Source: Cloeon dipterum (taxonomy: Eukaryota > Arthropoda > Insecta > Ephemeroptera > Baetidae). Taken from it: a DNA stretch of 64,000 nt. The translations under genes and the position numbers were made by a program. The stretch spans positions 32,846,335 through 32,910,334 of the forward strand of contig NC_088788.1 of NCBI RefSeq assembly GCF_949628265.1. The letters run 5' to 3'. Of the stretch, positions 286 to 61,298 are shown one piece after another (the first letter of the stretch is position 1; each line of letters opens with the position of its first letter). The notes under the pieces were generated by a model. It saw nothing but the letters and a program-made list of their open reading frames with translations, was not told the DNA's origin and did not search any database.

Positions 286-3200
286 ATCCAGATAAAAGCA
301 TGAAAAACATTATTTGCGCTTCTTATTTCGCTTATTTCAATAAAATCTCTTCTGACATCTGTGAGCATACATATTTTTCGTCACTTATTTACTCAACTCT
401 TTTGGCGTTGGCTCATCCAAGGCTGTATCAACATCCGAGAAAGTTCCTAAAAGGATTTCTCTTTCATCAGCGAAAATCAAAAATTCGACTCATATGCAAG
501 AATTATCAATGTCTTCAGCGATTTCACTCGGTGGCCAGGGAAAGCAAATTGAATTCTACGCAACCGTGAGCGGAAAATAAATTTATTCTGATGAAACTTC
601 CTGCGAACCTTCTGGGGCCTGACATTGATTTATTCCTCTCTGAGCTTTCGCGACGCAACACCAATATGAAAACAAGAGTCTATAACGAGCGCGGCGCTTT
701 TACATCGCGTGCAAATTTCCAATTTTCCCTTTGGGCATGCAAAATGTGAATGTTATCATATTATTTAAATTGAATGCAGTATTTTAATTCTATCAAAATT
801 TATTTACATCGGTCTACAAATTTAATTTTACGTGTGGCCCAGTTTTATCCCAAAATTGTAAAAATATATCGCAAAACACTTCAGTTTTATATCTGTGAAT
901 CTTGCATTTGAAGTGAGTTTCTTCATTTATTTTTTGTATTTGAGAAAAAACATAATTTACATTTTATTTTATGTATGTGTCTAATATTTGAAAATATTTT
1001 CTTCGAATCAATTACGTTGTGGAGAAAAAGTTATTTACTTTACGGCCCTCGGCGCCATCCGAGGGAGAGAGCACGCTACATCTATTTTTTTATTTAAATT
1101 TCCAAACCTATATTCATGTTTTGAATATAACTTCTTGAATATATTTTACGCGAACTGATGTTAAAGAAACTGCTGCAGAATTGGAGTCTAAGGTACAGCT
1201 GACAATGAGCTCAAAATAAATGAAAATTCGCTGTATTAGCATCAGCAGGAAGAACACAAAACGTTTTTGTTCAATTAATATGCAAAGCTTTCCGAACGAA
1301 TCTCAATGTGGATATCATTGAATTTCAAGTATTTATTTGCTATTTGTTCATGTTTAATGACTTGTTGTGCATGGCTGAAAGCTCACTCAGCCCACTTGTA
1401 TTATTTGCGTTTGCTCGCATAAACGTTCTCGCTCTTCCAAAAGCAAGTTTGTCAACAGGAGTGTTGATTTAATACAAAATGAACCATGCTGCAGTTCAGC
1501 AATTCTGTCAACTCGGTTTAAATTCAATTAACGAAAATACGGTGTGCAACGCTCAAATTAAGGTTAAGCTCACATATGTAAGAATTTTATGATGCAATTT
1601 TACGTTGAAATTTTTCGGAATAGCCGTATGATAATTAGCAGCGAAATATTATTCATTATCATCGTGATATGATGTTTCCCCATATTGTGCTAAACTAACT
1701 TGGTAGAGGCTTACACGTTTCTGCTAAACGTACATCAGAAATAAGGAACAAACAAATTGAGAAAGAATAGAAATTGCGGAACGCATGCTGCAAAAAGATC
1801 TGTTAAGGTTTACAAGTTCTATGTAAATTTTTTCTATTTCTCGAATAAAATATTTTTACCTACAATAAATCGACGTGAACGACCGGCACCAGCGTCTGCA
1901 GCCACCACCAGTGCGCACTGCGCAGCATTTTCGGCAAGCGAGCTTCTTCCTTCAGCCGGATATCCCTCTCTGCTCAGAAAACACTTATGGCAATTTACAT
2001 TGATTTTAATCCCTTAGGCTTGAAATCCTGTTAGCAAACCACTTTAGACTGGATCCATTTTCTAATTTTATCTAGATTGATTCCACAAGAGATTTAATAT
2101 GGTTCAGAACACACCTTCCTGATTTTTTGGTACGTTGTTTAGGGTGCTACAGAGGTGTCAAAATAATAACCAAGTTTGCTGCAAACATTTTATGCAGGTC
2201 TACCGGGTTAGAATCGAGAGAAACTGGTCACAAAATATGATATTTTCCCTAGTTCTTATCAGGATGGTGCTCAAACAAAAGCATATGAATTTTCCGAGAA
2301 TGCTATTAGTCAGGCTAGCCATCTCCTCGAAGTGGGGTGTGGAATAACATTTTACAGGCTGAAAATGAAAAATTCTGTCGTGAAATATAGCTGTCCCCTA
2401 CGTACTTTAAAGCATTTTTTGTTATCTGTTTATTTCGTCTGTGGCACACTCATGAAATAGGTGCGTGACCAGGTGCACTTTATGTCTAAAATTAATTGTA
2501 TTGTTGCCTTTTTTATCTCGTGAAATATGGTAAACTAGATTAAACAAAACTGTTCGAGTTTTAAATGAATTACTCTAAAATAAACGAAGATGAAAAGTTT
2601 TGTTACTAATTTACCACTTAAAAATGGAACAAAACTCGAATAAAAAAATGGTTTTCAAGAAATATTTCTTGAAATTGTAGACCTTAACTGTAAGGGCTTT
2701 AAGCAGGCGGTCTGATGCCTGTGTTGTTGCTCGTTTTCCCATTTGAAATCAACTCCTGCTTTCGCAAGGAGCGTAAAGTGGCGCTGCAATTTTCTCATGT
2801 AATGACACTACTGTAATAATTCATAATTCAGCAAGCCCATGAGGCTAATCAGTTCCTTTATATTCACTGGGGGACTCAGTTATTTGAGAATATTTATTTT
2901 TTGGTCTTCATTGGTACGACCTTCTCGACCGATTTTCCAGCCTATAGCACTACCAAATCAAAGCATCCTATTTTACATTTACTTCTTTGAACGTAATACT
3001 AATATCGTCAGGTGAATCCCTGAAAATAAGATGAAATCACAAAATGGCCCCAGTCTAGAGTAATTTTTTTACAGGATTTAGTGTAACCCATTGAAAATGA
3101 AATGTATGCGTTGCGGGGTGGCCGGGAAGGAGGAAGGAAAGAACTGCTAAAATTAGACTATTTTATTTCACACTCTGCACTCTCTGCGTGCACACACATT

Positions 3201-10922: not shown

Positions 10923-10995
10923 GCCCGGCTAGCTCAGTCGGTAGAGCATGAGACTCTTAATCTCAGGGTCGTGGGTTCGAGCCCCACGTTGGGCG
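10923..10995 (+). tRNA. tRNA-Lys (anticodon CTT)
   Basis: The 73-nt cloverleaf is complete. The acceptor stem starts GCCCGGC and pairs with GTTGGGC (two G-U pairs) before discriminator G. The D arm contains AGCTCAGTCGGTAGAGC, the anticodon loop is CTCTTAA with anticodon CTT, and the T arm has GTGGGTTCGAGCCCCAC. It matches the eukaryotic tRNA-Lys(CUU) I know, with intact A and B boxes and no intron. A T5 run at 10999-11003 is the Pol III terminator. It looks functional rather than SINE-derived. Confidence 0.97.
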
Positions 10996-10998
10996 CAC

Positions 10999-15223: not shown

Positions 15224-15385
15224 TCACACGTGCAGGAGGACGCAGTCCGGCGGCGTGTTGGGGCTGGGCTCGTCGGGCCCCATGGGCGGCGGCTGCGGCG
15301 GGCGGCCGAGGGGCGGCGGGGGCGGGGGCAGCACGGGGGGCCCTGGCAGGCCAGGCAGCATGAGACGCCTGGCCAGCCGCCGGCG
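15224..15385 (-). other. Proline-rich in-frame extension after the TAG stop (readthrough candidate)
   Basis: After the TAG at 15388-15386 the same frame stays open for 53 codons to a TGA at 15226-15224. The translation is basic at first (RRRLARRLML), then proline-rich with six consecutive prolines and PPQPPPMG, and ends DCVLLHV. Composition by codon position is about 87, 64 and 94 percent GC, the order expected for coding sequence in this frame and matching the exon before the stop. The stop context is TAG followed by C. A GC-only hairpin (7 bp, one bulged A, 5-nt loop) occupies 15385-15366, directly after the stop. The end L-H-V fits a class II PDZ ligand pattern. The rival explanation is a GC-rich 3' UTR that happens to be open. 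Confidence 0.5.
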
Positions 15386-18300
15386 CTACGCGCGCGGCAC
15401 GAAGCGCCGGTGCTCGGGCTCCTGGGACCAGCAGTTGTCGCTTAGCCAGCAGCCGATCACCACCGTCACCAGGCCGATCAACAACGCCAGCACGATGTAC
15501 ACCTCGGCCTTGCCTGCGGCACGACATCAACACACACGTGTCACTCCACTCTTGGAGCAGCTTGCAAAACAAACAATACACGGGCAAATAGCAAATAGCA
15601 AACAGCACCCAGCACCCAGCGTTTGATTTGTGCTGAGCACCGATATGTTGTTTGCCTTTGTACTCGCATTATTTAAGCTCTTTCAGTCAATCACTTAATG
15701 GGACGAAAGAGAGGAGAATTTTCCGAATGACCCATTTTGCTAATGAAAAGCCAATGTGAACATACAAAAATGGTTTTAGGGCGTACCGCTGTTTGAAATT
15801 GTTGGTAAATGCCAGTGAATTGTGAAGTTGTCATAATTAATCAGTTGAAATTTACTACAGCTTCCTTGGTGTGTAGCGTAGCGATTTGTTATTTTTCCAA
15901 ATTTACCAGTTTCGAAGTATTTGGTGTTCGAAGCTGCCAATAGATGGCGCCAGCGGTTACTTTTGATTTTAAGCTGCGATTTAACACTCAATCCCTGCTA
16001 CTTATGCTGAAAACCGAAATCAGTCTAGCCAATCACCGTATTAAGAAAGAATTTTGAGGGCTGAATGCACAGCAACTGAATTAGTTCTAAATCGCAACGG
16101 GATTGCCTTAAAATTGGAAGTATAGGGCGAGGGTGACACCATCTGTTGGAGGCTTTAAACTCTGACGGCTTTCGAAAATTGTAAATTTTTATGATAAATG
16201 TCCTGCTCAGGACATTTCTATAGAGATAATGGGAAATAAACAGCTCACTGGATTTCATTTCAAAATTGTTTGAAATTCTTCTAGTTTGAAATCCTTTTCA
16301 GAAACACAAAACTGCATACTAGTAATCTTGTGACTTATCTGCATTAGTTGAAATAAATGGCATAAGTGCTTTTAGGGCTGTTTAAACTCGAATTATTCAT
16401 TTCTCTCACAATCAGATTTCTCCATTTAATTACACTTCTTGCACCAATGGGACCGACACGATAGCAAGAACTTTTAACCTTGAGGGAAATTCGGCAAATT
16501 CGCTTTTCTGACAAATTAAACTCAGGCTGCCGGAACATCACATGAACAAATGGATCATTAATCCCGCGGGAAGGACGCCGACGTCCGCGCAAAAGGAAGG
16601 CGTTCGCGTGTATTACAAGCGGGTATCGCTGATGTGCGTTTGAATAACTACACCCAACGGAGTCGAGAGCAGATTTCAGCGTTTTCCGAAGCGTTCGAAA
16701 CTGCCGGGTTGCGGAATTATTTGCAATCAGTATCCGTTTATGAGACCGCATCGAATCGTTGCGGTCCCACCAAAAAGAGCATTATGTCTGTGTTTGCAAA
16801 ACAAATCTGGCTTGCTTTCAATTAGTCGGGCGCCAGTCAAAAGCTTGAACCGACACAAAGCTGAGCTAAACAGTGACGGGGAGGCACTAATTAATCACCG
16901 CGTGCGCGCTTTTCGTCGCTTATTACGCGTGGAACTCGGCACATCGGAGCCGCTTAGACAAACCGACTCATTTTTCACCGCAAATCCGGACAAATTGCAG
17001 GCACTTAGCAGCGCGGCGAGGAGCCGTTGAGTTGCATGAATTATTCATCGAGGCGGGAGAGTAATTTAATTTTATTTGGAGGTCCTCTCGCTTCTCCCTT
17101 TCGAACTCTTTTTCGGTCCGCAACGACTCAAGGGAAATTGGAAAGCCTTCAAAGCAACAGGAAAAAAACCACCTGAGTGAACTGATAGAATTTTAAATAG
17201 TGTTTCAAACTCTAAAAATATATATTTTATATTTACTGGTTCGTGATTTGAAGAAATAGGCTTTTAATGGGGAGGAATCTTGGAATTAAAATCAAGCAAT
17301 TCAGGCCCATTTCATAATCAACTAAAATATTCCATTGTTGCCTACTTCCCCTAAGTATTTTAATATTTTTCCACAAATTTTCGTTTCATAATATGCTTCA
17401 AAGTAAATTACGTTGATTGGGAATAAAAGGGGGAAATTTTTATTATTTAGTGTGAAATTTTCTTTGCAAGCCACGAAACAGATCACTTCCCTCGCGAATT
17501 CGAGCTCAAAACGCCTTATTTCGAGCGGTGGCAATCCTCTGGGTGCGTCGTTGGCTTTATATTTACGGCAGCGTTGGTCGGCGAGTTTTACTGGCCGACC
17601 CAATCCACTGATTCCATTGCCCGCGCAAAGGCGAAGAGAGCTAGCCGAGCGCGTTTCACACTCGCAAACTCGGTCTCTTTATTGACGTGAAACAAATTAG
17701 GTTGCTGCGCGCACAGAGGAGCGAAAAATTAGTCTGCTTTTTTACCTCGCATTGTTCGTTTATTCGCTTTTTTCGCTACAGCTGCTGCCCGCGTTTGATT
17801 TACGCTGTTGGCATAAATCACAAACACGCGAAGCTGATATTTATTATTATTATTTATTATTCACCGACGAAGGCTTCAATAAACAAACACAAAACATTTT
17901 TCCTCATCGACTTTTTCTTTAGAGGAGTAGAATTTTTAGTTTTTATTCCAAATTGAAATGATTGCTTTGAATTAGATTACCCATTCCATTTTTCTCCCGA
18001 ATTCGAGCAGCGAGGGGCTGTTTGATTTTGTGAGTATTCGTCTCTTTTTTTCTGTCAGCACAACAGCCTTTATTGTTGGTGATTGATTGATATTCGCCGG
18101 ATTGCAAACAACACTCGCTGTTTGTTTGACGAGCGAGAACAAACGTTCTTCGGCAGATCGAAAAACACGTTCGCACTGAAATTCGCAAATGCACGACAGA
18201 AGGACCTGTTTTAGGATTCGACGATTTCGTTTGTTTGCTTTGCTTTGCAGCCCCCTGCTTTATTTAGTTACGCAACAATGTCATATGCCGATGATGAAGT

Positions 18301-21300
18301 GGTCGGCGCGGCGCTGCGTCAATGACATTTTAATTACGTTACAAGGTTCGCTTATTATTCAGCGTGCCTGGCTTTATAATGGACCCACTGCGGTCGTCCT
18401 GTGTTCGTCGACTATTTGTGCAGCCAGCTAATTATTTGCCCCAGGGAGAGGAGGCGTCGTGTGCAGGTGTCACACCTGTATCACGCTGAATTACACGCAT
18501 GTATAATATTGAAGCGGAACAACAACGAGTTTTGAACAAAATGGAGACAAGGATGTTAGAGAGAGCGGTTTTTACTTTGAGAGAAAATTTCAAACTGGTA
18601 GTATCACGAGGCTTTTCTGAGTCTTTATATTTGTCAAATGTAGCAGTTTGTTTATTTAATTCGAATGCCAATTTTGAAACGCATAGCACATTCAAAGTAA
18701 ACCATTTCATGTATTTTCTTGAGCCGTTTTGAAAATATCTCAATATTTTATGGTTTGTCGTAATGGTGCTTGACTGCCGCGTGCTTATTTAAATTTTGAT
18801 ATATTTGAACATGCCACGGTACGAACGGTTGACTTATTTTTGCCCATATATTCCTCTAAAAACTGACACTGAGTTGATTGAGCTTTTAAAAATTTAAATT
18901 TGGCGTGTTTACCAAGCGGCGTTCTACTCTTCCAGAGGTTGTGCACGAGGGAAGGGTCTCCGCGGCGCCACTCCCTGAAGGCACCCCTGCTGCGCTTGAT
19001 GACCTGGCCTCCTCCAGGGGGCGATTGTTGAACCGCTGGGAAGGCCGGCGGGGCTCCTTGGGTTGCTCCTGAGGAACCCTGTTGCGTTGGGTATTGCTGC
19101 TGCTGGTTTTGGCACAGGAACCCTAGAAATTAAAATTTGTTTCAGCAGCCAGCTGAAGTTCACATCGGTCCGGGCACAATAATTATGTTAATTAGTTTTA
19201 GCGGCAAGGGAATTTGTGGAAAATGGGAAAATACAATAATTCAATTTAAATTAAAATTTCATTTGAGGAGAAGATAGGGTGGTGAAAATTTGATTTTCAA
19301 GTAATTAAGTGGCTTTTAATAAAGAATCCAAACTAATTACAGATTTTAACTCGCATCAAGGAAATAAAAAACTTCTACGAGAAAATATTTAAATCAATAA
19401 TTATAATATGAAAAGCAGACTAGGTCTTAACGAAATATAATTTGAGATAAACCTATTTCTCTTAAATAATCTGCTCCTCTTGCAATCTGATTTTTAAAAT
19501 TAAAAAGCGAGTGTATGATCTTCGGTGGCGGCGCTTTATATGCCTCTGTTCGAAACTGTTCACTTCCACTTTGCCTCTATGTGTAAGCGAACACAGTTCC
19601 AAACAGAGACAAACGCTTCAATGAGGAGAGAAGCAAACGCTTTTAAACCTCAAGTGGCCCGCTTCCAACCAGAAGTCGTGAAGCGAATCCGCTTCAAACC
19701 CCAATATTTCGCTTTCTCGGCACTTTTGGGAACGTTTTGTTTCCGTTGGTAACGAATTTATCTCAATTGGATTTTTAATGGATAAATTAAATGGAAAAAA
19801 TTAAAAGTTTTTGAAATTACACAATTGGCGGAATTTCAGCTTGGAGTTGTAACGCAATGAGGGTGGGTGGCAAGGTATCACTAAGTGACTTGTCCAGCAT
19901 CTTTTCTCAGCAAATGAGTCCAGTCAATTGTTTTTAACTTCTTGGTGATTCAGAATAACATTCCGCAGTTTACTGTTTTGCAGGAAAACTACTGCTGATA
20001 AAGTCTCAGTGCTGCATATAGCGCAAAAACGTGAACATTCTCTTTAAAGTTTGTAACTTTTGCTGTACTTCCTTTTTTTTGTCAAATTAACTATTTCATT
20101 CTTTATGTCCAGGATTTGTCTCATTTGAGTTTTTCTCATTAAGTTTTATTCGTGGCGAAAATACTTGCCGGTTGAAAGTATTAAGTGGACCATTTATCTC
20201 TGGCCAATTTTGCTAATTTGCCAATTCCCGAGAGTGTTTGTTGCGAAAAGTCAGCTGGAGTATCGCTGCAATTTGCCGCAAGTTTGGGCAACGTTTGCGT
20301 GAACAATGTCGTGCAGAGAAGGAGCAGAAAGTGAGACCGGCGCGCAGATGAGTTCATAAAAGTTGAAAAGTTGGCCGGCGCGCGCGGAGAGCTTGATACG
20401 TGTGCGGCCTACTTATTATCGCCGCGTGTCCACGCTCGCCGGCCGCATCACGAATTCATTAAAAACGCGCGTGCGGCTACTTTTTCAAATTAGCCCCTTT
20501 TTACGGGGGCGCTGCTCGATTGAGCGAACAAACAGAGGCTTCAGCTGCGTCCCCGTTTTCGCCAGCGAGCGCGCGCTAATGTTTTCATTTTCCACGACTT
20601 CATTAAAATAACATGCAGCTGCGTGTCGTGTGTTGCAAAAACGCGCTATTTTGCGGCGCGCGGACATTTTTTAATTCTACAATGCTATAAAAACTTTTGC
20701 CAAGAGTCGAGATGCGACTTTACGCAGCAGAACTTTGAGAGAACCTCACAACATTCTCAGATTTCAAAGTTAGCCAGAGCTTTGTGCCACTCTATTATAT
20801 AAACAGAATTAAGCAGAACAAGCAGAATATAAAAAAGCAAGCGGACACTGGCTTGACGTCATGCTAATTATAAATAAAACAGAAAACAATCCGTGGTTGC
20901 GTTAGACTGCACTACAAAAATGCTAAAAACATTTTGAGAAGCATCTAAGAACTGACTGGAAAAAACGTTTCTCCTTATTCTTTATTTGATAGCAATTTAA
21001 TTGTTATAAATGGTATTTACCCAACAAGCATTCCATGGTTACCAATTTCTTTTTGTTCAAACGTTTATTTACAACTCGAATCATTACCAATTTGAGTATG
21101 CAAATTTTGTAATAGTAACAATATCAGCGGCAACATTTAAGAAGATACGCAAGATTTATGTATGTCTTTTGTAAATTTTACACCACCGTTAATGTTGTTA
21201 CTTAGTAAATTTCTATTCCATAAATGGTGTTCTTATGAAGTTTTGCAAATTTTCTCTCAAAAGAGTGAACCGAACTGAAGTGAAACAAAAACTGAACTAG

Positions 21301-24300: not shown

Positions 24301-25699
24301 TAATGCAAAATAGAAAAAAGTAAAAAATCATATTTTTTCCAGTTTTTAAATGGACTGACACGAAAAAAAAGCTCTCAAATGTAATGGGACAACTCAAAGG
24401 CACGTTATCGATGTGTCAAAAGACTAAGCTTATTTTCAAAACAGTAATTAAAAAACAAAAATAACAGAAGCGACCTTTGAACTTGACCTAGGACATCAAA
24501 ATAAGTGTTATATCAATCGGGCTCATTGAGAGGAATCAAAATCATACCTTATTTTTGAAATTGCACTACAGGGAGATGAGATACTGAGGTCTAAATATTT
24601 TCCCCAAAAAAATAATATTTTGTCGAAATAAATTTACTATGCAATCTGCTAGTAAAGACTGATTTCTGGGGTAAATTTTGTTGAGTTTGCTTGACCTCAT
24701 GCCATTTCCCCCCTCTAACTCATGACATTTCAGCTCATTTGAAATTGTTTCATACTTAAATTAGTTTAATTCAAATAATCTCAAGTTTCCAAATCGTCGG
24801 GAGCCCGTTTTCCTGAACCGCAGATGTTTCTTCATCTCAATCTCAAGCACAGAGAAAGTGTGGCCTTGTTTTGTGCGAAAACAATCACGTATATCCCTTA
24901 TTTCTCTATTAAGACGGCTCGAGAACGACAGAAGGGTGAATCAGTAGGTTGTGAGTCTAGCCGATCAGTCTTGATTAAGAGGTAGTTCAACGGCTGGGTT
25001 GCGTTGCGTGTGCGGCTGCCTGGCGCGAATCTATTAAGCTGCTGCCGGCAGAGGTCAAGGCCTCGCTCGAGCACACGGCTACGCTACGCAGCCCGCTTGC
25101 TTTATTCACCTCGAGAGACGGCTAAATATTTGACTGAGCGCGCCGTGTGTTGCTTCTTTCGCAGCGCACGATTAAAATTCATGACGCGATGAGCAGGTGC
25201 AATCGAGCGCACGCTATACCATGCAACCGGTTGGCGTCTACTGCTCGACCGGTTGCATTCTCTGCCCCTTAATTATGAATGCCGAGTAGCTGTGAAGACG
25301 GCTGTTACGGCCAAGGCCGACCTCATTCCGAAAAAAGAGCTATCGGACGGATCCTAAAATAGAAAAACAAGCTGCTCTGGCATGTCAATGCGAGTTAAAT
25401 ATTTAATTTTTAATTCACTGTAAATTAAATAAAAAGAGCTGAAAATGTATCCCAATTTTCAGCATTATTCGGCCGAAAAATAACATCCTATTCTTTTTTA
25501 AACAACTTCGCATGGGATGGGTTTCAGTCTTTGTTTTCGCATGGGAAGGAAATCTAACCCTCGTCATGAACACCAATTTTAAAAATCGGTGTTTACGCCC
25601 ATGCAGAGAATTTTTGTTATTTAACTCACCATTAAGAGAAAGCAAAATGAAGAGCAGCATTTGGCTCCAGGAGCAGCGACAGCTCTTCCAGTGCAGCAT
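15386..25699 (-). CDS. Small type I membrane protein, unrecognised, three coding exons
   Basis: Minus-strand exons 25720-25630 (ATG at 25699), 19122-18913 and 15513-15386 join with phase-1 introns at both junctions to 135 codons and a TAG. Residues 1-23 are a signal peptide or anchor (core QMLLFILLSLN). Residues 25-93 form an ectodomain rich in Gln and Pro, with a basic IKRSRG stretch, an RGD (77-79) and a single cysteine (27). Residues 98-117 are a transmembrane helix (VYIVLALLIGLVTVVIGCWL), followed by a short basic tail ending FVPRA. Third-position GC is near 98 percent in the last exon, and each splice site is a good GT-AG match. I do not know the family. The first exon starts inside a 5' UTR (acceptor at 25721), so a noncoding exon must lie further up, perhaps at 46.6-46.9 kb. 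The stop is followed by a likely readthrough extension. Confidence 0.72.
15918..16182. mobile_element. MITE copy A
   Basis: About 265 bp related along its length to the element at 31186-31562, with an internal deletion. The ends are imperfect inverted repeats: GTGTTCGAAGCTGCCAATAG at the left, and at the right a sequence whose complement reads GAGTTTAAAGCCTCCAACAG. There is no coding capacity. The left end contains CCAATAGATGGCGCCA, close to the CTCF core. Confidence 0.75.
18464..18478. promoter_or_regulatory. Inverted pair of E-boxes
   Basis: CAGGTG, three bases, then CACCTG: two inward-facing sites of the Snail/Scratch or bHLH type. It is intronic and its function is untested. Confidence 0.3.
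19542..19610. repeat. Imperfect hairpin of about 28-bp arms
   Basis: GCCTCTGTTCGAAACTG (19542) pairs with CAGTTCCAAACAGAGAC ending at 19610, and TTCACTTCCA pairs with TGTAAGCGAA inside, across a 2-nt bulge and a loop of about 13 nt. The size resembles a pre-miRNA, but no known miRNA seed was recognised. Confidence 0.4.
20340..20670. promoter_or_regulatory. CpG-rich intronic patch
   Basis: A GC- and CpG-dense block with several CGCGC and GCGAGCGC runs next to TAAT/ATTA motifs, surrounded by AT-rich sequence and without coding bias. It could be a cis-regulatory element. Confidence 0.3.
24253..24730. repeat. Dispersed repeat family 2, copy 1
   Basis: About 480 bp alignable to 42179-42666. Shared blocks include AATTCTGATGGTTAGAACT, ATTTGGAGTTGACA, GACCTAGGACATCAAA, TAAAGACTGATTTC and CTTGACCTCATGC. 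There is no ORF and no evident terminal repeat. It is probably a fragment of a transposable element. Confidence 0.75.
25221..25258. promoter_or_regulatory. Inverted pair of Grainyhead-like sites
   Basis: ATGCAACCGGT (25221-25231) and its exact reverse complement ACCGGTTGCAT (25248-25258) are separated by 16 nt. Each includes the ACCGGT core of Grainyhead/CP2 sites. They lie in a CpG-rich patch 450 nt from the signal-peptide exon, on the coding side. Confidence 0.4.
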
Positions 25700-28600
25700 T
25701 GTAACCCGCCCCGGCGAAAACTGTAAACAGAATAAATTATTAGCGCGTCATTGCCAGTACAGTGTCTCGTCTGCTTCTGCGAGAGAAAACATTAATCTCT
25801 CTGCCTGTGCTCGGCTCGTTCTCTGGCTCAGTGTACGTGCTTAAAAATATTGCGGTGCTCATTTTAAAAACAGGCAAAAATTTTGGCACTCAAACAGTCC
25901 CTCCGTCAAAAGTGAAAAAGGAAAAATAGACTGCGGTTCAACAGCACGAGAAAGCTACGTTTGAAAGATTTTACAGCAGATTAAGAGGAAGGAAACGTCT
26001 GAAAGAACAATTCTTATCTCCTTTAAAAGTCGTAAAAATTAATAATTATAATTTTAAACTAATGCAGAATTAATTGCCAACTAAAAATATCTTGGAAAAA
26101 ATGTAGAATGCGAGAAAAATTAGACCATTGAATCCATCTGGGCAGATTTTAATGTTAATCATTTTTAAAATATTTAGAAATGAGGCACTATACAAATTCA
26201 TGTGTCCTACAAAAAAAGCTGTTCCAAAATTTATATCGTGCATGATCTTCGCTCCAAATTTTCACTTACATACACAGAAGATTGAGAAAAATGTGCTGGG
26301 ATAACCAGCAATATTTTGAAATGTCCCTTCTAGAGTGTAGCTAAATTCTGGCAACCCTGCAAAAAAGTTGACCAGAGATGAGAAAAAGACCTTTTCTCAT
26401 TAACGTACATGAATGTGTTCTTAAGACGCCTTCCATGTCTTCCCCTTTTAATTTACATAAACTAATTGCATAATTCAAGTGCTTTGAACGTACTGGGGTA
26501 AAAATGTCGTAAAATTATTTTAAATGTCTCTTCAGCACCTCCGTGATTGAAAAAAATGTTTGAATTGTTTGTCGTGAGCATTCCACTATTGAAAAAAATC
26601 CTTTTTGCACAGGCAACTCTTAATAAACCAATTCCACGTGAGCCCAATCAAGGTTCCCACACAATAAAATTTAAAAAAAAAGTCAAGCAACTATATGAGG
26701 GTTTAAAAATATCACGGCAATATGCCATTTTCATAATTTCAGATATTTTTCTTAAAAAAAACCCTTTTACTCTCGCAGGAAACTGCAAGAAATCGATTGT
26801 TTCTCATGAGAATATTCGGCCAAAGATGCCGTCGTGCTGCTCTTTTCCATATCTTTGCCACTCTCGCAAAGCCTCGGGACTAAGCTCTATCTTGTCGGAG
26901 GGTTATGCAAAATGAGGCAAAGATTTATCGAGTGACTCTCAGTCAGCAGCGGAGTGACTGCGACAGCCGCACACGCATGAAATATAGCGAGCGAACCGGA
27001 GTGAACACGCGGCCCTTTTGAATATATCAAATAATATGTGCGCAGCGTGGACTACTCTTCTGTGTTTTCCGATATTGTTTATTGCGTTCGCCAGGCTGAC
27101 AGTGAGATGGAGAGCAGTGTTATTGTTTCGACGAAAACAAAAGACGCCCTTGAGAAAATGAATATTCGGACGGCAGATGGTGAAAAACGACTTATTCCGA
27201 CTAAAATATTCAAAAGGATGCTTGTTTATTACTTTTTCAGCTTTTCCGTGGCCAATTTCCTTCACGAATACAAATGTTTTTAATGCGCTCGCACGTCGCA
27301 AGTTGAAACTCGCATGATTTATGGCTTTAATCTAAAGAAAGTAGCTCCGCTCGTAAAATATCACTTTCCACTGCTATAACCATGAGACAGAGAGTATATA
27401 TTTGTTTGTTATTTCGGTGTTTAGTGCGAGAGTAAAATTACAAATGAGTTTTTTCATCCAGCCCGCAAAGATTTATTCGAATTAAACTGACACACAAACT
27501 AGAGAAGCTATTTTTATAATTTTTGGTTCTGCGTTTAAAGAAGTGATGGTTTAATTATTTTGTTGAAATTCAAATGCCACGCCCTGCAGTATGTACTAAA
27601 TTTTTGTGAAAAAGAGCCATGATCTGGCCGAAAGTGGACAGCAGCTGCTCTCGGGCACGTCCAACTGACAGACGGCGCAGCACAACACACGGCACCGGGA
27701 TTTTGTTCTCTCACGAAATCCATCGCGCCACTTGCAGCAAAGTACACATACACATATTATTGCATCGCAGCTACAAAATCGATGGCATACACGTGTCCTC
27801 TCGGCGCAAAACTGCTCTGAATGCAAAGTAATTGGAGTTTTTCGGTCGCTATAAAAGCGAATTGCTCCGACGATCGAGTCTCTGATTAAACCTCGGAGGC
27901 AGCAAGAAAGCACGTTCACAGATAAAACCGCTTTGCATGGATCCCGCTCGCTTCTGTTGTGCACAAAACTTGGCCATCAAGACGCCGCCGCGCATTGACA
28001 TCAAAGCAGGGCATTCCCTCCGGCTTGTTGCAACTTTGCATTGCATCATCGACGGTGCTACCACCTGATGACACCGGCCAAATGGCTCCAGCACCAGCTG
28101 CCGCCGATGCGAGCTGCTCTATTTTTCCCATCAGCGTGCAATATCATTACGATTCAAAAGGCAGGAGTGATTCGAATGGATTAATGCATCGCGAGCCTAA
28201 TGGGACGAATAAATAGCATGTGCACGAAGCTCAAATACATATAAATAATTACCTCGATTAAAAATTTAAATGGTGTCTCCGTTTAAAAATCATGCTTCAA
28301 CTCTCTAGATATTTCTTAAATGCATCTAGAAGGTGATAATTAATAATCGATAAAAAGCATAGGATCATATTCTATTCGTAAATATTTTATTTTTAATTAA
28401 TTATCGTAAACCTTTTTACCTTTTTTTACGCAATAATTTTGTCTACCGTTTATAAATCAGTTGATGCTTAATATCAAAGCTGCAATGAATCATGCTGAAG
28501 TTTCGCCATTCTTTTGACTTAAAGCTCACTTCAAGTTCATTTACGAGCCCAATGAAGAAACTTTCAAATAACTTGTGCTGCAAAGTCAAACAGACCGAGC

Positions 28601-29819: not shown

Positions 29820-31887
29820 TTAAACATCAACAAAGTGTATGTTTCTGAAAATACATGAATCAATGGCATAATCCGAACGAAGTAGGATGTCATTGAAGCA
29901 GTTAATGGTGTCTCTTTGGTTTATCTTATGCAAATTATCGGCGAGAGGCAGTTTCCTCAAGAAAATGGGATTATCATCAGGATCTAAAACTTCCACTTTA
30001 AACTCGACTCGACAACCTTCCGGCACAATGGCAAAAAGGTCTATGTGAGCCCAAGAGTTTTTCTCCAGCTTTTTGGGGAAGTTGATTTCACGCTTGTAGA
30101 GCGACCCATTAATGGAAACGGTGTATTGACCATTTAAGTTGTTATTGTAGCTCTTGTGTCCAGCTTCTTCTAGCCTAATGAGAATTGATTTATTTAGATT
30201 TACCATGTGACTCGGAAACTCTAATTTAATACATTGTTGATGTACACTCGCCAAAGTAGTCCTCTTCATATATGTCCAGTTTGCACAAGACATCAAAGCC
30301 TAAGATTTTAATGCATCTCTTAGCGATCAACGTAATTTTAAATATTATGAGACTCGTTATTTTTTCCCATTTTGCCTTTTTGAAAATAGTTCTGATGTCA
30401 TCAATGTAACCGTCTCCAATCAGTGTCAAAATCTTTTTGTGCGGTCCCCTTTCAAATGGGATGGTGCAAATTATGGATTCATTAAGTTTGGGCTCCTCGT
30501 CAAACCGCAGCAGTGGATTTTTGAGTGCAGCAAGGTAAGTTTTTTCTTTTTCGGTGAGAAAAAGCACAAAATTTTGAAGGTCGCTAAACTTCAGTGCCAA
30601 CAATCGAAGGCTTGGACAGAACCGTCGAAAAGTAGCTCTGTGCAACGCAAAATCATAAAATCATTATATTTCATCTTCGTATTTCCTGTAGAATATAATA
30701 TATACCTTTCATCGTCTCTAGATTTTGCGTAATTAAGACAGGCCTTTACAAGCTCTAACTCGCAATCAATGTTCATTTGATCCAAAGTCAAGAACATCTC
30801 AATAGCTTCCTCTCTGGCCTCGAGGAAGGTTTTGTGCTGGACACATTTCTCTGCCTCCAAACTCAGCAGCTGCATTTGCAGGTTTTTATTCTATGCATAA
30901 GTATTAAAAAGTCTTAACCTTCAAGCAAGACGAGGTGATGGCGTTGATCAAAAGGTTCTCGCTCAAGACTGCCCACACGTTTTCCACAGACAAAAACCTC
31001 TCCTCAAGTAGTTTGGAGCACAGAGCACTAAGATCCTCAATCATATATTCATCAGAGGCTGCAGCCAACTTCAGACATAAATCTAAACTGTCTACCTCAG
31101 TCACCAGTTGTCCACAGAGATGGGCAAACCTTCAAATTTTGAGTAGCAAAAATTATGAAAAGCTAATTCACTATAGTTGCTAAAATCCTTTAGTGTTCAA
31201 AGCCACCAACTGATGGCGTCAGCGGCTACTTAGATTTTATTGCACTCTTCCGTTGTGATTTTACACTCAATCCTGCTAATGTGCATTCTGATCTTAAAAT
31301 AATTCATTTTGATGTGTCGGAAACCAAAATCAGTCCAGCTAATCACCGTAGAAACGTCGGGAAAGATTTTTTTATTTCAAAAAGTTGTTTTCCCCGTTTC
31401 TTGGCTGAACCGAAATTGGCTTTCAGCTCACCAAAAGAAATCATTTTAAGGACTGAGTGCATAGCAGCAGAATTTAGTCAAAAATCGCAGCGGAATAAGT
31501 GCTTTAAAATCGTAGCTCTCTGTTGGCGACTTCGAACACTAAAGGCTTTCGTTAAATTGAATAGTCATATCGTATAAGATTCTCACTCAGCAACTAATTT
31601 GAAGACCTGAGGCTCGATGTTCTTGAGTTTGAAATATTCACAGGGGCCGTAAAGTCCATTCAGCCTTTCTTTGAAAAACAAACTGCTCACGACCTTCAAG
31701 TCGGACTTGCATGCGTTGACCTCCTGGGGTAATTTGTTTACTATGCTGTACAATGGGTCGTGAAATTTAAAAGAGAAACCTGGACGTTTTGGTCGTCACC
31801 AACGAGAAATATGCAATCGGTCTGCAGTGCACCTCCCTCCAGGGCCCTCAATTTCTTGATGGCGACTGTTAACTTAGCACCGCTCAT
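29820..31887 (-). CDS. BTB-BACK domain protein with PHR-like C-terminus, six exons
   Basis: Exons 31887-31780, 31723-31587, 31129-30919, 30869-30706, 30637-30292 and 30218-29820 join in frame to 454 aa. The BTB domain starts at DCIFLVGDDQNVQ (residue 24) and runs through SSLFFKERLNG and LKNIEPQVFKLVAEF. The BACK domain includes KCVQHKTFLEAREEAIE, LNIDCELE-like spacing and FCPSLRLLALKFSDL. The C-terminal half resembles the PHR domain of BTBD1/2/3/6 proteins, which act as Cullin-3 substrate adaptors, and the total length fits that group. Introns are tiny (56, 457, 49, 68 and 73 nt), and the 457-nt one is mostly MITE. The last junction is least certain: its donor GTCTTG is weak and the acceptor AG follows another AG by two bases. 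The alternative is a one-base frameshift between 30296 and 30228. Orthology is not settled. Confidence 0.72.
31186..31562. mobile_element. MITE copy B inside a BTB gene intron
   Basis: About 375 bp with terminal inverted repeats of about 30 bp: the left end reads CCTTTAGTGTTCAAAGCCAC, and the complement of the right end reads CCTTTAGTGTTCGAAGTCGC. It has no ORF. It is homologous to 15918-16182 along both halves and is longer in the middle. It fills most of the 457-nt intron 31586-31130, leaving about 80 nt of original intron. Confidence 0.8.
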
Positions 31888-46606: not shown

Positions 46607-46950
46607 CTTTGACTGAAAGCGAGGGACAGGGTCGTCGGAGGTCAGGGTGCGGCCGCAGGATTGGAGGTGGTGGTGATGGCGCGGGGCGCGCGGAGCGACT
46701 GCCCCCGCCTGGCTCGCGACGGGCTCCGTCTGCCTCCGCCAGATGGACGATTTTGCGCGCCTGCCTGCCGTGCTGCCCTGGCCACCCCGCACTTATGTTA
46801 GGCAACCCGCACGGAGCCGGCAGAGGTCACGTCACACGCGCCCAACCCACTCAACCTCGGCACTCGCACTACCCACTCGCACGGCGCCCTTTGACGCGCC
46901 CGCCTCCGAGGGCTGCTTGCTGCGTGCACTGCCGCCGCCGCTGCGGCCTG
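46607..46950 (-). promoter_or_regulatory. GC island with a minus-strand first exon (probable 5' UTR)
   Basis: A CpG-dense block in AT-rich surroundings. Read on the minus strand it ends in a strong donor, CAAAG|GTGAGTGC, at 46607/46606. No frame within it has a convincing start or continues into a known exon, so it looks like a noncoding first exon and promoter. The nearest minus-strand genes needing a 5' exon are the small type I membrane protein (acceptor at 25721) and, less likely, the BTB gene. The upstream boundary is a guess. Confidence 0.4.
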
Positions 46951-48269: not shown

Positions 48270-48990
48270 ATGAAGGGATTCGCGTGCTTGGTCGCCACTT
48301 TCCTCTTCTTGGGCGTTGCCAACGGTGAGAATTGTGCTTTAGAACTTTCTACTTCAACTAACAACAACCAGTTAGGGGATATTGATTTCTAAAAAAACTA
48401 ACTTTTTCTTTATTTGTTTCGGATAAAATTTGTTGTGTTTTATTTAACATGAGTATCTAAAAATGCCACTTGCTGACAGCTCTTGATTGCTACACGTGTG
48501 ACTCGAACAGGGCAGGAGAAGAGTACTGCTCTCACGTGCCGTTCAAGAAGCCAAGCGCGGAGAAAGCAATGTCTTGCAGCGACTCCTTCAATCACGCGTT
48601 TAACGAATTCAGAAGCACTTTCCAAGCCGGCGGACAGCAAAATGATCAACTCGAATCTTGCGTAAAACAGACCTATTCAGACGGTAAGGATTCGTTCTTA
48701 CCAATTTTTAACCTAATTAATTGTCAACGATACCGTGCCAAGCAGGCGATAATTGTGTTTGAGATTTGCGATAAAATCTGGATTAATATTTTTCAGAGCA
48801 TGGGAAGGTGTTGCGAGTGACTCGTGGGTGCGCCACTGGCTTCGACAACGTGTGCAAGTTTTTCGGGCAGAACCCGCAGAACCCGTACAAGTGCTACGAG
48901 TGCAAGGAAAATTACTGCAACGGAGCCAACTCTTTGGCCTCTGCTATCCTTCTCACTCTTGTAGCCATCGCTTTTTCTTTTAAGATGTAA
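48270..48990 (+). CDS. Ly6/uPAR (three-finger) protein, secreted and GPI-anchored
   Basis: Exons 48270-48324, 48480-48683 and 48797-48990 with phase-1 introns encode 150 aa. Residues 1-18 or so are a signal peptide (KGFACLVATFLFLGVANG-type). The mature chain begins ALDCYTC and has ten cysteines (22, 25, 35, 51, 79, 98, 106, 119, 122, 127), ending in the CxxCxxxxCN pattern (CYECKENYCN) that defines the LU domain. The hydrophobic end (SLASAILLTLVAIAFSF) after a small-residue stretch at about 128-132 (NGANS) is a typical GPI signal. Insect Ly6 proteins of the boudin, crooked and quiver type act in septate junctions, trafficking or neuronal signalling; which subgroup this is cannot be told. The exon layout (signal peptide exon, then two LU exons) is normal for the family. 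Confidence 0.93.
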
Positions 48991-60500: not shown

Positions 60501-61298
60501 AACTTTAAAAAATGAAGTGAGTGCCAATATTTACCTGATACTTTTCGATTTTTTCGACTTTTTGACCGGCAGCTGGCGTGGCTGGCATAATTGGTGTTTT
60601 TGTTTATAATCAAACAGAGAATAGTCTCATAACTAATGCTTGAATAGAAATTCACACTACACAAAAATTCACCGCCAGTAAAATCAGGATATAGATTTTT
60701 TATTTTTCACTTCTGATTTTCCAGATGTAACTAATAATTATTTTGTGACTACCACAGTATAGCAACCACATCAGAGTAACCGTGGAAACATTGCTTTTGA
60801 AATATTACGCATCACAAAATATCTAATGCAAATTTAAAAATTGCGTGGAATCGCGGAAAAAGAAATGCGATGTAGTGTGGAGTTTCCAGGCAAATGCAGG
60901 ATTTTTCAAAGTCCATAGATATACGGTGATATATTATGTGAGAGGGCACAAAAAATATTTAATGCTGAGATAAAGTTAAAAACAAAATAGCTCGATCCGT
61001 CAATATTCCGCACAGGTCCTATTACTGGATATTGTTTGAATTTACATTTAAAATTCAGGGATTTTTGTACAGTTTAATCATTTTCATCTAACCCTTTATT
61101 GAACGAGTTTGAAACTGATTTTAATCAATATTTTGTTCGTCTTTTTCGACAGGTCGCGGTTACAGCGGGATCAACGAGGAGATCATGTATGTGAGCATCG
61201 GCATGGCAATCACGATCGCCATCCTCATCAGCCTGGCGCTGTGCTACATCGCACGCGAGAAGTGCAGGAAAAAGCGCGAGTTCTTCGTCACCGCATGA
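54578..61298 (+). CDS. 68-aa single-pass membrane micropeptide, two coding exons
   Basis: Exon 54521-54638 (ATG at 54578, acceptor CAGCAG before 54521) and exon 61153-61298 join with a phase-1 intron. The product starts MPVGGRMGGKGVGVYSSNAN, a glycine-rich N-terminus without a signal peptide. A polar GYSGINEE segment follows, then a hydrophobic helix at about residues 32-53 (YVSIGMAITIAILISLALCY) and a basic tail AREKCRKKREFFVTA. Codons in the second exon are strongly GC-ending, unlike the surroundings. The positive tail predicts that the C-terminus faces the cytosol. I do not recognise the family; short one-pass regulators such as the stannin/hemotin type are similar only in build. AATAAA near 61669 is a plausible polyadenylation signal. 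Too short to be caught by usual length cut-offs, but the splice match and bias are good. Confidence 0.72.
54639..61152 (+). other. Large intron of the micropeptide gene
   Basis: 6.5 kb. GC-richer patches occur at about 56000-56200, 58560-58790 and 59550-59920. The 58.6-kb patch is open in several frames on both strands, none convincing. No repeats shared with other parts of the window were seen. Confidence 0.55.

Follow-up and report, generated by a model that had tools for sequence, protein, structure and literature searches.

A coding-type extension behind an in-frame TAG in a putative membrane-protein gene of Cloeon dipterum, a candidate case of stop-codon readthrough

In vertebrates, stop-codon readthrough of myelin protein zero (L-MPZ) lengthens the cytosolic tail of a single-pass membrane protein. 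Among insects readthrough is widespread: Jungreis et al. (2016, PMC5100048) estimate more than 900 readthrough stops in the fruit fly and more than 600 in a mosquito, and describe readthrough as abundant in most insects tested and in one crustacean, with none among the other species tested. According to the same study, TGA is the preferred readthrough stop and TAG comes next, readthrough genes are on the whole long, and the sequence CAGCAGCA, sought from 250 nt upstream of the first stop to the second stop, accompanies 35.3% of the candidates in the fly and 23.5% of those in the mosquito, i.e., as an enrichment and not as a requirement (PMC5100048). A second set, the Drosophila readthrough genes of Dunn et al. 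(2013, PMC3840789), was established by ribosome profiling and includes C-terminal extensions carrying short signals.

We analyzed a 64,000-nt stretch of contig NC_088788.1 of the mayfly Cloeon dipterum (hereafter the window), in which the last exon of a putative membrane-protein gene runs on the minus strand from 15513 to 15224 through a transmembrane segment, a tail, a TAG, 53 open codons and a TGA:

15389–15513, minus strand: first part of the last exon, behind a phase-1 acceptor cut between GCAG and GC (15514/15513; acceptor score 1.7)
15386–15388, minus strand: TAG stop, next base C
15227–15385, minus strand: 53-codon extension RRRLARRLMLPGLPGPPVLPPPPPPLGRPPQPPPMGPDEPSPNTPPDCVLLHV, with a codon-position pattern of coding type
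15224–15226, minus strand: TGA, the second stop and the end of the coding signature

As in L-MPZ, the cytosolic tail of a single-pass membrane protein would be extended, the difference being that L-MPZ is a vertebrate case with an unrelated protein and tail. With the Drosophila and Anopheles readthrough genes of Jungreis et al. (PMC5100048), the locus shares an in-frame coding second ORF that ends at the second stop and a C after the first; unlike them it has TAG for TGA, a short first ORF and no CAGCAGCA within 250 nt upstream, and it is known from one genome. The genes of Dunn et al. (PMC3840789) likewise share C-terminal extensions with short signals, but those were identified by ribosome profiling, whereas the present case is built from sequence.

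An earlier examination of the letters (hereafter the sequence-only reading) had noted a transmembrane exon ending FVPRA-TAG, with C as the next base and 53 open codons behind it. This can be read directly off the DNA: the minus-strand frame is EHRRFVPRA-TAG-C, then 53 open codons and a TGA at 15226–15224. The last exon, together with the final base of exon 3, encodes GKAEVYIVLALLIGLVTVVIGCWLSDNCWSQEPEHRRFVPRA up to the TAG; its first part holds the single transmembrane segment VYIVLALLIGLVTVVIGCW, whose hydropathy peaks at 2.65 in a 19-residue window, and a 19-residue tail LSDNCWSQEPEHRRFVPRA, and the exon joins exon 3 in phase. The extension opens with the basic stretch RRRLARR, continues with LPPPPPPL and PPQPPP runs and terminates in CVLLHV; the basic start, PPPPPP, PPQPPP and L-H-V end named in the sequence-only reading are all present. 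From sequence, we presume these motifs to be compatible with EVH1, profilin and SH3 binding and with class II PDZ binding. An ATG at codon 9 of the extension is a candidate downstream start.

Upstream of the last exon, the gene was modelled ab initio, with exons matched in phase:

18913–19122, minus strand: exon 3, with phase-1 boundaries on either side, ab initio (acceptor −1.7, donor −0.5)
25630–25720, minus strand: exon 2, with start codon and signal-peptide-like MLHWKSCRCSWSQMLLFILLSLN, ending in phase 1, ab initio
46607–46740, minus strand: candidate GC-rich non-coding first exon, with a donor cut between AAAG and GTGAGT (score 8.0)

The splice-site weights behind these scores are approximate. 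Exon 2 has good splice scores (3.4 and 5.9) and a codon score of −1.5. Exon 3, which encodes a Gln/Pro-rich ectodomain, was missed at strict splice thresholds and found after these were loosened; its acceptor was placed at 19122 to match exon 2, the scan's own preference being 19102. The first exon is possible and the least certain element of the model. The model predicts a protein of 135 residues that begins with a signal-peptide-like stretch and continues with an ectodomain, one transmembrane segment and a cytosolic tail, and hydropathy favours both hydrophobic segments of this ab initio model. The modelled ectodomain (18913–19122, minus strand) also contains a dibasic KRSR and an RGD (WRRGDPS) near the membrane.

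Homology searches returned no family for this protein. Against Pfam the 135-residue model stayed far below cut-offs (DUF3040, E 0.078; Vps55, E 0.41), and against the PDB its one match was a chain at E 0.97. Searched singly, neither the membrane exon nor the extension nor an overlapping frame hit a Pfam family; in the PDB the membrane exon likewise had no match. In the assembly (190,111,064 bases in 10 contigs), a paralogue search found nothing except a match at E 5.8 containing a stop, and the extension stretch occurs as a single copy, with no second one in the assembly. One scan each of bacterial/archaeal and of viral collections gave 119 and 16 pattern-matched stretches, none of them confirmed. 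A literature search that paired readthrough with membrane proteins, with proline-rich tails and with mayflies brought up no such gene among the best-matching titles, a search limited by the gene having no name.

We also scanned against Pfam 260 minus-strand ORFs from 15.5 to 60.7 kb, namely 137 of the 150 ORFs of 54 codons or more (the other 13 lie right of 60.8 kb) and 123 of 40–53 codons. Among the matches listed, BACK was found in two ORFs (best E 0.00069), and the others listed were single ORFs at E 0.0055 and 0.0089, with the rest at 0.01 or above, i.e., at chance level for a scan of this size. One of these weak matches, OAF_N at E 0.19, was dismissed as chance, though oaf is a readthrough gene in the fly. 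The two BACK matches, just under the cut-off, lie at 30594–30890 (E 0.00069) and 30907–31131 (E 0.0078) within a BTB-like gene (29823–31795, minus strand), which is on the same strand as the membrane gene and would sit in its intron 1 should the candidate first exon hold. Elsewhere in the window, a tRNA-Lys (anticodon ctt; 10923–10996, plus strand) lies between a TCF25-like gene and the membrane gene; Cys-rich exons at 48461–48987 (plus strand) with a hydrophobic tail end (FSFKM) appear Ly6-like by eye, with no Pfam match at 0.01; and an isolated exon at 61152–61298 (plus strand) encodes one transmembrane segment, GYSGINEEIMYVSIGMAITIAILISLALCYIAREKCRKKREFFVTA, followed by TGA, with a GC3 of 0.9 in its best 40 codons and no Pfam match at 0.01. 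Genome-wide, 94 matches to the chitin-binding cuticle domain were found, indicating an arthropod.

Next, we evaluated whether the 53 codons behind the TAG are coding, using our own codon-position pattern measure on a single genome and not the published Z curve score. A single-genome composition test with a similar aim is used in PMC5100048. The sequence-only reading had based its case on an open frame and on a GC pattern of 87/64/94%. The percentages hold exactly, with G or C in 46, 34 and 50 of the 53 codons at the first, second and third position, and the exon before the TAG shows 61/41/98%. The openness carries no weight as evidence: with about 82% GC in the extension stretch, open frames are to be expected, as in 79% of 5000 shuffles in frame 0, and other frames, on the plus strand too, are likewise open across it. 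The pattern does carry weight. AT counts of 7/19/3 by codon position give a chi of 14.3, matched by 4 of 5000 dinucleotide shuffles, and a position 3 this AT-poor together with a position 2 this AT-rich arose in 1 of 5000 dinucleotide-preserving shuffles.

The signal also follows the boundaries of the proposed frame. In 13-codon windows in the exon frame, GC3 is 0.23–0.46 in the intron, 0.92–1.00 from the acceptor to the TAG and 0.77–1.00 in the extension; the final window ahead of the TGA has 1.00 and the one just beyond it 0.62, so that the coding signature stops at the second stop. Within the extension, the final 19 codons, which lie clear of the poly-proline run, carry G or C at 19 of 19 third positions vs. 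23 of 38 others (p 0.0007), while the opening 17 codons alone (G/C at 15, 12 and 14 of 17) are without third-position excess. GC1 exceeds GC2, as it does in the exon ahead of the TAG, and this order fits the minus strand and not the plus; the long plus-strand ORF can be an echo, since the mirror frame has the same third positions.

Were the extension a non-coding, GC-rich 3′ UTR, with its pattern arising by chance or as a side effect of CCG-type repeats, the GC content and the open frames would be as seen, but the shuffles, the signal in the final 19 codons and the end at the TGA speak against this, as do other GC-rich stretches. Specifically, we scored 14 partly overlapping controls of at least 70% GC: the five inside the window (46.6–47.0 and 52.6 kb) reached a chi of at most 3.4 and the three in one other locus at most 4.4, vs. 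14.3 for the extension, while four of six controls from kinase loci, which are possibly coding, exceeded 7, one of them (16.5) surpassing the extension.

A survey of stop triplets bears on the same question. Every stop triplet in any frame and on either strand with 159 bases after it (n = 22,794) was taken from 222,681 bases, i.e., the window, 40 kb rightward, one 10-kb stretch leftward and further loci, leaving out loci that duplicate the exons. Overall, 1,486 of these triplets had 53 or more open codons behind them, and four of the 1,486 showed the pattern, defined as at least 48 of 53 third positions G/C, with a GC maximum at position 3 and a minimum at position 2. One is the TAG at 15388–15386; the other three precede true exons by Pfam match (TTL, E 1.2e-28 for a longer stretch; protein kinase, 1.5e-13; dynactin subunit 5, DCTN5, 1.2e-16), where the stop triplets are taken to be intronic. 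The pattern was absent past seven other gene-end or exon-end stops (chi 0.0–1.4), three of which are the next stop in a scored exon's frame, where a true gene end is only presumed. Headcase, which is a readthrough gene in the fly, provided one more gene end without the coding pattern: its last exon here (1510–1686, plus strand of its locus) has 41/45/95% GC before a TAG and G/C at 24, 24 and 25 of 53 after it, i.e., ordinary sequence. The Synapsin gene was also located in the genome. With the survey added, a non-coding 3′ UTR is the least probable of the readings considered here, and the coding nature of the 53 codons in the exon's frame is well supported from this one genome. Because of the position pattern and the survey, we regard the extension as coding now or until very recently.

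The three companions in the survey also bear on splicing that skips the TAG, since true exons downstream of intronic stops show the same signature. Either the TAG itself would serve as an AG acceptor, cut before CGC (15386/15385), or a small intron would lie inside the exon. The acceptor scores −0.4, but joined to phase-1 exon 3 it leads into a different frame. As for a small intron, there are three GT donors past the membrane segment and ahead of the TAG, with scores of −3.8, −4.6 and −7.2, and the better donors (up to 2.2) sit inside the membrane segment, so that such an intron would delete part of it. We consider splicing around the TAG quite improbable.

RNA structure around the stop had been a further argument of the sequence-only reading, which described a hairpin of seven G-C pairs beginning right after the stop. 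Instead, the best perfect partner of the post-stop bases reaches six pairs only (CGCCGG with CCGGCG, beginning 25 nt upstream), and a search from 175 nt upstream to 306 nt downstream for a partner of 7–8 bases found only the palindromic stretch itself. Seven G-C pairs need the G of the TAG, and the stem therefore encloses the stop. Two hairpins were found:

15380–15410, minus strand: stop-holding hairpin of 13 bp, an 8-bp stem CCGGCGCU/AGCGCCGG plus 5 bp
15340–15384, minus strand: second hairpin, with its main stem beginning about 8 nt past the stop

In chosen short windows the structure z-score was −2.3 (37 nt, stop-holding hairpin) and −2.5 (46 nt, second hairpin); in longer ones it was −1.3 (57 nt, stop-holding hairpin), −0.74 (66 nt), −0.51 (89 nt), +0.14 (100 nt) and +0.2 (290 nt). 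The proposed argument from downstream structure thus counts for little: over 66–100 nt the structure is no stronger than in shuffles, the one 46-nt window at z −2.5 notwithstanding, and the hairpin is weak support for readthrough.

The stop-holding hairpin would suit A-to-I editing: UAG would become UGG (Trp) in some of the transcripts, which would yield the longer protein without leaky termination and act as a switch deciding on the proline-rich, PDZ-type tail. The stop's own A and G are the first bases of AGCGCCGG, the A being paired with U15403 at a probability of 0.85–0.87, and it lies between a 5′ U and a 3′ G, a context favoured by ADAR. The stem is short, however, and 8 of 20 shuffled queries did as well as, or better than, the best long-range partner within 13.5–19.2 kb. 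Editing also had no role in the testable fly readthrough events (PMC3840789). Taken together, we hold an edited, hairpin-held UAG to be very improbable.

A more serious competitor is that the TAG is recent or unreal, i.e., a nonsense allele of the individual sequenced, a young stop gain that shortens the protein or an assembly base error, with the species, or its recent ancestors, normally making the longer protein. This predicts exactly the unbroken codon signature observed. Such stops mimic readthrough, and for this reason Jungreis et al. dropped stops confined to close relatives and subtracted estimated sequencing errors in their single-genome test (PMC5100048). Against it, insects have, in our judgement and not by count, fewer such stops than readthrough stops, the C following the TAG fits leaky stops, if weakly, and the assembly's one copy of the stretch offers no second allele for comparison. 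A recent or unreal TAG therefore appears to us unlikely, if well worth keeping in view; the standing given to it and to readthrough is a matter of judgement and was not calculated.

Overall, stop-codon readthrough is in our assessment the best explanation for the coding extension, favoured with modest confidence, and would be a new case of a known phenomenon. The sequence-only reading had come to readthrough by way of a coding extension, the commonness of readthrough in insects and the hairpin; the first stands through the codon pattern, the end at the TGA and the survey, the second is borne out by PMC5100048, and the third is weak. Several features count against readthrough: the stop is TAG and not TGA, the first ORF is short, structure in long windows is ordinary, and the splice scores of exon 3 are weak. 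In addition, CAGCAGCA was not found from 250 nt upstream to the second stop, nor anywhere in the exon or extension; its nearest copies in the modelled mRNA precede the stop by 315 and 318 nt.

With readthrough, normal termination at the TAG would produce the 135-residue single-pass type I membrane protein, while a minority of ribosomes would take TAG-C as sense and continue to the TGA, giving a 189-residue isoform whose cytosolic tail would be first basic, then proline-rich, and end in LLHV. We infer translation past the TAG, its regulation and the binding of the tail to proline-recognising or PDZ domains. If this is true, one concrete and easily assayed case would be added to insect readthrough, and a single-genome codon-position test would be able to single out such a case. 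There would then be two forms of the membrane protein, distinguished by their tail alone, in a balance set by termination efficiency, and the extra tail could dock scaffolds or actin regulators.
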